A stretch of DNA of 64,000 bases. Source: an uncultured Candidatus Melainabacteria bacterium (GTDB lineage: Bacteria > Cyanobacteriota > Vampirovibrionia > Gastranaerophilales > Gastranaerophilaceae). The notes beneath the pieces were generated by a model. The model saw nothing but the letters and a program-made list of their open reading frames with translations, made no database searches and was not told the origin of the DNA. The stretch lies in NCBI GenBank assembly GCA_947364235.1, contig CANARY010000001.1:310001-374000 (forward strand), in the 5' to 3' direction. Positions 44,056 to 46,155 of this stretch are shown here, piece after piece (position 1 is the first letter of the stretch; the number at the start of each line of letters is the position of its first letter). The translations under genes were made by a program, and so were the position numbers.

Positions 44056-44173
44056 GTAATTGAGCGACACGCCATAGTTCCAATTCGAGTGAGAGACGAC
44101 ATTGTTGACATTGAACGCAAAAGCACCAACCAAAAAGCCGTCATTCGGATTGCTACCAAAGCGAGCGAAACCC
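44056..44173 (-). repeat. DGR template repeat 1 (TR1)
   Basis: About 117 bp matching the fibre gene's variable repeat at 44515-44631 base for base except 12 positions; 11 of the 12 are T on the plus strand, that is A in the coding sense. Read in the fibre frame it encodes GFARFGSNPNDGFLVGAF and then VNNVVSHSNWNYGVSLNY, with AAT/AAC/TAT codons at the sites that vary. It lies between the reverse transcriptase and TR2. Confidence 0.93.
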
Positions 44174-44198
44174 TTGAATTATTACCCAAAATTTTTTA

Positions 44199-44316
44199 GT
44201 ATGCGAGCGACACGCCATAGTTCCAGTGGCTGACAGAGCAGACATTGTTGACATCAAACGAGAAACAACCACACAAAAACCCCTCAGCAGTGTTGCAACC
44301 AAAGCGAGCGAAACCC
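44199..44316 (-). repeat. second template-like repeat (TR2), no target seen in the window
   Basis: Same length and same ends as TR1 (GAGCGACACGCCATAGTTCC on one side, AAAGCGAGCGAAACCC on the other), 143 bp away. The interior is diverged at A and non-A positions alike. In the fibre frame it stays open and encodes GFARFGCNTAEGFLCG, VNNVCSVSHWNYGVSLAY, stop. The flanks of TR1 and TR2 are also alike (ATTATTACCCAAAATTTT and AAATTATCCAAAATG). It is a template for a different variable repeat, or a duplicated relic. Confidence 0.8.
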
Positions 44317-44475
44317 GTAGTAAATTATCCAAAATGTAAAAGTACAAACATGCTTATCTAGTATGCCAAAAAATAATATACCATAAAAATAAAACATGCT
44401 TGACTTTTAATTTAAAATTTACCCGGCATCCCCTCAAAAAAAATTTTTCATGAGCCTTCGGCTCAAATGGTTAAA

Positions 44476-44493
44476 TGGGGGATAGCTCCCCCA
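44476..44493. promoter_or_regulatory. GC-rich hairpin downstream of the variable repeat
   Basis: TGGGGGA, a four-base loop, TCCCCCA: a seven-bp stem starting 21 bp past the variable repeat end and six bp past the stop codon. In the Bordetella phage DGR a GC-rich hairpin with a four-base loop at this place is needed for efficient target recognition. Neither template repeat has one. Confidence 0.65.
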
Positions 44494-44499
44494 AACCCC

Positions 44500-46155
44500 C
44501 TAAAGAGGTGATTTGTAAGAGAGCGACACGCCAGAGTGCCAAGACGAGTGAGAGACGACAACGTTGACAGTGACCGCAAAAGCACCAACCAAAAAGCCGT
44601 CATACGGATCGCTACCAAAGCGAGCGAAACCGATCAGAGAGGCATTGCTCCAACATCCATCACAGTAAAAAGTTGTTGAGGTTCCGCCGGCATCTGCCGT
44701 AGGCACAAGCCCCAAGCCCGGCACAAGCTCCATCCTTTTAATATAGAGTTGTGAGATCGTTCCCGGTAATGTAACACCGGAGTCAATATAACCGTCTCCT
44801 GTTGTGTTGTAGTTTTCAACAGTTGATCCGTCATGTGTACCCTCACACATTTTATAAAGCAGCTTGCCATTTTTCTGAATTATACCGTTTGTAATTTTCC
44901 AAATGTTGCCCCACCAGTTTTCAATATGAAAAACTTTAACAAGCCCATTGTTATTATCTCCATAGAACATCCCTTTATCTTTGAGAGTGCCTGTTGTATT
45001 GATCTGATTAGTATTTGATTCATTAACATAGCCGGTATATCTGCCGGTACCAAATACGGACTGAGTGTCTGTTGATTTGCCAATCAAAAGCAATAAGTAA
45101 TTTATCAACCGTCTTAAGCTGTACTCATCAACATTCCATCCGGCACCGTTTGCCTTTGCATAAGCCATCTGAGTATCACCGGCAACACTTTTGCACATAT
45201 TTTGCCCGGCTATTGTACGGATCTTATTGCTGACATTTGCACCATCAAACAAGCCACGATAAATATTTTTGCAATAGCTGCCGTCTTTCTTTTGGTGAGT
45301 GTAACAATCTGCATTGTTAGAGAACTTTTTATTACCTATGCGGACATGGATTTTGTCATTTTGTAAAAATTCCTCAATCCAAATCTGCCCGATTTCAACC
45401 ATTGCATTACCGCCATAGGCTGTATTTGATACATCAGAGGCAGTGCCGTCAAGTTTTTTGCTGTAATCGTTAGGATCAAGGTAATAATCAACAGTGCCAT
45501 CATATTTAAGCATACAAGGCTTGAACAGCTGCATAAAAAAGGCATCAGCCCATGATCCATAATTAAAGACATTGCTTGCATAATCCATTTTTGCAGGAAT
45601 AAATTTTTCATTTATGCTGCCTTCAGGATAAGAGATGCAGCCGGCAGGATTAGAGTTTTTTTGATCAATAACAAACTCATAAACCTCAGACTGACCAAAT
45701 TTATTAAATCCGTTGAGATTGACCACATTATTTGCTGATACAGGGAATGCCCTGTAAAAATACTCATTTGTCTCATCCGGCAGAGTGTCTGTAAGTGCCG
45801 TTAAATTGTATTGATTTCTTATTTTATTTGTAGCAATAATCTCTCCCTCAGACGGATTTGCAGGGTAGTCTCCTGCTTTTCTCACAATCAGAGTCTTTGC
45901 CCATGTGCAGACTGTCTGATTTTCTATGACTGTATCACTAGGATCCTTCCATTTAAGCTGAACAGATGTGCCGTTTTTCTCAATTCTGAGATTTGCACAA
46001 TTAGAGGGCGGCACACCTTGAGGCAAATTACCAAATGTATTATCCAGGATCTCAAAATTCTCATTGAGATCTCTGTCAAAATTAAAAAGCTCATTGCCAT
46101 CTTTGCTCATATCAGTCAAGTTCATTTTTAAAAATTCTGTTTTTTTATCTCCCAT
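44500..46155 (-). CDS. tail fibre with DGR-diversified C-terminal lectin-like domain
   Basis: A 551-residue receptor-binding protein, last of the tail genes. The N-terminus (DGNELFNFDRDLNENFEILD) attaches to the baseplate. A fibronectin-like part follows (VPPSNCANLRIEKNGTSVQL). The C-terminal half has the formylglycine-enzyme/C-type lectin character of DGR targets (WGNIWKITNGIIQKNGKLLY; GLVPTADAGGTSTTFYCDGC; ARFGSDPYDGFLVGAFA). The final 39 residues are the variable repeat product. Diversification should change which host surface structure the phage binds. Confidence 0.9.
   Translation of the reverse strand: MGDKKTEFLKMNLTDMSKDGNELFNFDRDLNENFEILDNTFGNLPQGVPPSNCANLRIEKNGTSVQLKWKDPSDTVIENQTVCTWAKTLIVRKAGDYPANPSEGEIIATNKIRNQYNLTALTDTLPDETNEYFYRAFPVSANNVVNLNGFNKFGQSEVYEFVIDQKNSNPAGCISYPEGSINEKFIPAKMDYASNVFNYGSWADAFFMQLFKPCMLKYDGTVDYYLDPNDYSKKLDGTASDVSNTAYGGNAMVEIGQIWIEEFLQNDKIHVRIGNKKFSNNADCYTHQKKDGSYCKNIYRGLFDGANVSNKIRTIAGQNMCKSVAGDTQMAYAKANGAGWNVDEYSLRRLINYLLLLIGKSTDTQSVFGTGRYTGYVNESNTNQINTTGTLKDKGMFYGDNNNGLVKVFHIENWWGNIWKITNGIIQKNGKLLYKMCEGTHDGSTVENYNTTGDGYIDSGVTLPGTISQLYIKRMELVPGLGLVPTADAGGTSTTFYCDGCWSNASLIGFARFGSDPYDGFLVGAFAVTVNVVVSHSSWHSGVSLSYKSPL
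44515..44631 (-). repeat. DGR variable repeat (VR) in the tail fibre gene
   Basis: Compared with TR1 it has 12 substitutions; 11 are at template adenines (coding sense) and one is T to G, changing Phe to Val. At protein level Asn and Tyr codons of the template became Asp, Tyr, Thr, Val, Ser, His, Ser and Ser. About half of the 21 template adenines have changed, so the cassette has been active in this lineage. Confidence 0.93.

Follow-up and report, generated by a model that had tools for sequence, protein, structure and literature searches.

Two tandem, divergent templates before one reverse transcriptase: a probable alternative-template array for a single prophage fibre tip

Diversity-generating retroelements (DGRs) are usually described as one template that is written into one or more variable regions (VRs), with the protein scaffold fixed and only adenines varying. 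The stretch of DNA analysed here, 64,000 nucleotides long and referred to as the window, departs from this scheme in that two divergent template repeats, TR1 and TR2, lie in tandem before one reverse transcriptase (RT), and the question arises what the second template is for. The most likely answer is that TR2 lies dormant as an alternative template for this one fibre tip and does not serve a second target. More generally, we consider it fairly probable that several alternative templates, arranged as an array in one DGR, compete for one target here, and that TR2 is a swappable dormant scaffold allele. The features on which the argument builds are the following, in minus-strand order.

46155-44500, minus strand: tail-fibre gene of 551 aa, the DGR target (PHROG 5302, tail protein)
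44631-44512, minus strand: VR at the 3' end of the fibre gene, equal to TR1 save at adenines and two sites
44455-44515, minus strand: predicted hairpin just 3' of the VR, folding at -19.5 kcal/mol
44316-44345, minus strand: TR2 leader with the motif GGATAAT, counterpart of the TR1 leader
44315-44196, minus strand: TR2, the distal template repeat, 120 nt including an in-frame TAA, 76% identical to TR1 in register
44173-44195, minus strand: TR1 leader with the motif GGGTAAT, between TR2 and TR1
44172-44053, minus strand: TR1, the RT-proximal template repeat and template of the present VR
44020-43945, minus strand: RT-18 RNA (RF03021), presumed DGR priming RNA (Rfam match of 51.3 bits, gathering score 41.3)
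43961-42840, minus strand: DGR-type RT of 373 aa with YMDD and GFYTSQ motifs (Pfam RVT_1, 3.8e-19; PHROG 1423)

The locus is a DGR: a TR-VR pair, an RT, a target of the appropriate fold, a spacer RNA and a hairpin after the VR are all found, in the order fibre gene with VR, TR2, TR1, RT-18 RNA and RT on the minus strand. The RT has an intact YMDD motif, and its best solved match by sequence is 8ub7. The fibre has no sequence match in Pfam, NCBIfam or PDB; its kinship is drawn from PHROGs and from fold comparison, in which residues 208-549 of the structural model align with TaqVP (5vf4_D; Z 13.0, 252 residues, 3.7 Å). The C-terminal part is thus predicted to have the DGR variable-protein (C-type lectin) fold, with low confidence for the VR part, where the model has low pLDDT. 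Genes nearby code for baseplate J, tape measure, portal and further tail proteins and identify the locus as a prophage, probably one with a contractile tail; its host belongs to the Gastranaerophilales. The hairpin has no copy after TR1 or TR2. The stretch between TR1 and the RT folds no better than shuffled sequences (z = -0.29), yet the RT-18 covariance model recognises it; promoter and terminator scans gave matches no more numerous than in shuffles. Not every DGR is known to carry an Avd protein. At the window locus, unlike in Bordetella phage BPP-1, none was identified with Pfam or PHROG, and the 178-aa ORF after the RT, a position checked for an Avd candidate, has no match in either.

TR1 wrote the present VR and TR2 did not, as the preliminary description of this DNA had already concluded for TR2. 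Over 120 nt, the VR differs from TR1 by 11 adenine changes and two non-adenine mismatches (one within the 111-nt core), and from TR2 by 10 adenine changes and 26 non-adenine mismatches. The two templates form a tandem repeat in register with a period of 143 nt and 76% identity (E = 1.1e-22). Their cores are identical over the 5' 18 nt and the 3' 20 nt, and 25/25 mismatches lie inside the 73-nt interior (hypergeometric p = 4.9e-6), so that the earlier picture of a second unit with the length and ends of TR1 and a diverged interior holds; its span including the stop is 44196-44315, a small correction to the 44199-44316 first given. The fibre frame is open across TR2, which ends with TAA and encodes GFARFGCNTAEGFLCGCFSFDVNNVCSVSHWNYGVSLAY followed by the stop, with the four Cys that had been reported. 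It was also said to keep variable-site codons, and indeed it holds an adenine in 6/7 codons that TR1 varied in the present VR, while its core contains 14 adenines against 18 in TR1, of which it lacks 6/18. The flanks are shared as described: a leader is repeated before both templates, GTACTTTTACATTTTGGATAATTTACTACG and ATACTAAAAAATTTTGGGTAATAATTCAAG, and its motif GGRTAAY lies 13-15 nt upstream in 15/17 template units of the clade, with ~0.012 expected per leader.

An obvious role for a second template would be to serve another target gene, whether in the host or in a different phage, and the preliminary description had proposed that one RT might serve two targets. DGRs with several TRs and several VRs do exist (PMC6642488). 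TR2 has no target in the window, as had been noted, and the search of its own genome (99% complete) returned no TR2-matching VR. With TR2 DNA as query, the 383 genomes of the family likewise yielded none, and the diverged TR2 core had no VR match in viral contigs. Matches to TR2 in another genome (G305, contig C14, 4533-6354) were rejected as an unrelated chromosomal intergenic repeat that is not part of a DGR; it contains GGGTTTCGCTCGCTTTG, which matches the TR 5' end. The arrays that we examined have a single fibre target each, and the ends of TR2 are identical to the VR of the window fibre over 18 nt on the 5' and 13 nt on the 3' side. A second target is therefore highly improbable.

Relatives offer a more direct view of what tandem templates do. 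We compared about 110 related loci with template-like units. About eight further lineages carry arrays of 2-4 templates, namely L028 (four), L073 (three) and L029/L072, L030, L031/L032, L034, L087/L089 and L194 (two), and a single template is the rule in nearly all of the ~100 other loci. The array trait is clustered on the RT tree, with 6 changes vs 9.7 in shuffles, but has been acquired or lost on several occasions. It is the proximal template that matches the VR in the window, L028, L029, L034, L072, L073 and L194, and does so less well in L087 (5 non-adenine mismatches). The L029 RT had been considered broken; this was rejected, since its frame is intact and both stops lie upstream of its start. 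The genome of the window itself holds a second prophage with an array (L009, contig C7:78000-96000), whose two tandem templates precede the RT at about 85507-86012 in contig coordinates and whose RT and fibre are 61% and 62% identical to those of the window. Its VR fits T1 save two interior positions that match T2, too few sites to call a mosaic. A third DGR of this genome lies just before the window (contig C1:300500-312000) and has an unrelated fibre-like target and a canonical single TR, with 13 adenine changes and 0 other mismatches to its VR.

In three relatives from two lineages, the pattern of mismatches indicates that it is the distal template that was written into the VR. The VRs of L031, L032 and L030 show 0, 1 and 1 non-adenine mismatches to the distal template over the 111-nt core and 24-26 to the proximal one. 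L031 and L032, which come from separate assemblies, are 97.6% identical over 4.9 kb and share identical templates. Their VRs are not the same, and nearly all differences between them fall at adenines of the distal template, which points to recent activity of that template. The active distal template of L031 encodes FLCGCF, as does TR2 of the window. The suggestion that TR2 stores an alternative fibre end, made earlier as one of two options, is well supported by these VRs and by the close kinship, described below, of dormant templates to active ones.

A related case is L075, whose only template belongs to the type in use in L031. The first 41 nt of its VR fit this template perfectly outside adenine sites; the next 47 nt fail it at 16/39 non-adenine sites (p = 8e-6) and encode the VGPFSF type found in L033 and L031_T1, although in DNA sequence none of the templates compared comes nearer than 6-8 mismatches. 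This arrangement fits a mosaic VR to which two templates contributed one after the other, one having later disappeared; alternatively, the assembly may be chimaeric.

Templates with common ends, an open frame and an in-frame stop might also be silent cassettes that move into the fibre gene by DNA recombination at the common ends, without the RT, and the mosaic VR of L075 could be seen in the same light. Two observations argue against this. The VR differences in L030, L031 and L032 fall at adenines of the distal template in use, which implicates reverse transcription, and VRs keep their own 3' end, CTCTCTTAC, and not the template's end and stop. We therefore regard transfer by recombination as very hard to credit.

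Could TR2 instead be a decaying relic of a tandem duplication, kept by chance while only TR1 is used? The lack of a TR2-derived VR in its own genome, the 383 family genomes and viral contigs would agree with this, as would the reduced number of core adenines and the strongly diverged interior, with a pN/pS of 0.80 against TR1. At this value TR2 itself shows no clear sign of selection, and its case is weaker than that of its counterparts in other phages. A template is non-coding, and selection at the protein level can act on it only via the VR that it writes. Dormant copies elsewhere nevertheless show an excess of synonymous changes. In the tree, the dormant L031_T1 falls with the single template of L033, which is active (bootstrap 100); the two differ by 12 changes, 8 of them synonymous (pN/pS 0.16, p = 9e-4). 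For the dormant T1 of L030, pN/pS is 0.09 against the active template of L071 and 0.20 against the active TR1 of the window, and for the distal copies of L029 and L072, both dormant, it is 0.27, all values to be read with the caveat that selection to keep adenines also lowers pN. Such low ratios suggest that use of these copies either ended not long ago or is intermittent. All thirteen dormant copies, from ten loci, are stop-free and conserved in length (chance product ~1e-4, the copies not being independent). In the window, TR2 retains frame, stop, length and leader, and its mismatches avoid both ends; furthermore, a distal copy is the one used in two related lineages. Taken with these points, a mere relic appears unlikely.

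In the template tree, TR2 clusters with the distal L029 and L072 copies (support 95/86; 114 nt, long branch), and so the template pair seems older than these phages. The duplication of a whole cassette followed by divergence, as first envisaged, is thus part of the story, to which an older origin of the pair and the presence of adenine-poor, VR-like copies in some arrays have to be added. These copies raise the idea that TR2 started out as a VR, was copied into a template slot and was then stored or merely stayed there. Relative to the respective T1, the second template of the C7 prophage has lost 11/19 adenines, L034_T2 15/21 and L028_T3 15/20, in each case with few other sites changed, and L028_T4 is likewise adenine-poor. 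L029_T1 lacks 10/20 adenines of L072_T1, while 4/91 other sites differ, and its first 60 nt are identical to its own VR. TR2, by contrast, shows no significant adenine bias, either against TR1 (6/18 vs 19/93, p = 0.23) or against L072_T2 (8/18 vs 29/93, p = 0.29), and we consider it very unlikely to be such a snapshot.

Between close relatives, array templates differ at 22/75 adenine columns vs 15/332 others, a count from two phage pairs only, and single templates differ at 27/211 adenine columns vs 95/658 others. Adenines thus seem to be where array templates change, a bias that single templates do not show, and this is of interest for template evolution. The sequences look as if array templates were themselves rewritten, by cDNA landing in a template or by a VR being copied back; the changes may reflect use, with tips being stored, or wear in copies that are not used. 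It is conceivable, if rather doubtful, that an array serves as a read-write store, in which VR states are copied into template slots and can later be written out. If this were true, a phage would possess a heritable record of its past fibre tips, next to templates that had stayed unchanged.

Returning to the dormant alternative template that we favour, one RT and one priming RNA, the RT-18 RNA after TR1, would serve both templates. Since their ends are common and their interiors different, the template copied would decide the scaffold of the fibre tip, and adenine mutagenesis would then vary that scaffold. The VR now carries the TR1 scaffold, and the Cys-rich FLCGCF-type scaffold of TR2 would be in reserve. 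In every array searched, a single RT-18 RNA is present and invariably follows the RT-proximal template, so that distal templates lack a priming structure of their own. To reach TR2, reverse transcription starting after TR1 might read through TR1; alternatively, it might jump to TR2 within the 20 nt that both templates share at their 3' ends. Reverse transcription in BPP-1 is terminated by a motif lying upstream of the TR (PMC12875486), and by analogy the leader motif GGRTAAY could have this role here. Homing in BPP-1 is possible with at least 8 bp of homology and works better with at least 19 bp (PMC3240598); the ends shared by TR2 and the VR are within the range reported to permit it there. 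Against use of TR2 stand the lack of any VR found with its interior, its lack of an RT-18 RNA of its own and its loss of 6/18 core adenines. That TR2 of the window phage is itself transcribed and used is an inference.

The locus resembles the BPP-1 DGR (Mtd) in its phage tail-fibre target, the VR at the 3' end, adenine-specific TR-VR differences, a spacer RNA between TR and RT and a hairpin after the VR. It is unlike BPP-1, which has one TR, in that two divergent TRs precede one RT-18 RNA. Pilin and surface-antigen cassettes and phage tail-fibre shufflons likewise store alternative 3' ends for one surface protein, with common ends and different interiors; unlike in these silent-cassette systems, transfer here would proceed via error-prone reverse transcription, judging from the adenine-specific differences. 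In the MetaCSST survey, 216/271 DGRs with several VRs had one TR, and Stenotrophomonas SKA14 has two TRs and six VRs (PMC6642488). The present locus shares with the multi-TR DGRs of that survey more than one TR per RT; there, extra TRs accompany extra VRs in several genes, whereas here tandem TRs appear to alternate on a single VR. In Treponema denticola, TRs of distinct types that are 81% identical serve targets of one kind (PMC4891356); they are described for separate strains and not in tandem at one locus. The literature searched, subscription papers excluded, contained multi-TR DGRs and no case of tandem divergent templates alternating on a single VR, and we therefore rate such a DGR as a variant beyond those found there. 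With several templates taking turns on one target, a phage could switch between scaffolds, beyond varying the loops on one scaffold. This also raises the mechanistic question of how an RT primed after the last template reaches the preceding one.

Additional VR-like units were observed at two loci. In L194, such a unit lies outside the fibre gene (reverse complement, 793-904) and carries a 3' VR end and a hairpin of its own. Compared with the template, all of its differences (9) are at adenines; it is also unlike the real VR, and from this pattern it seems to be an orphan target that was diversified on its own. L145, a DGR on a 244-kb viral contig, has several VR-like units, of which at least two fit one template with 0 non-adenine mismatches and 12 and 14 adenine changes.
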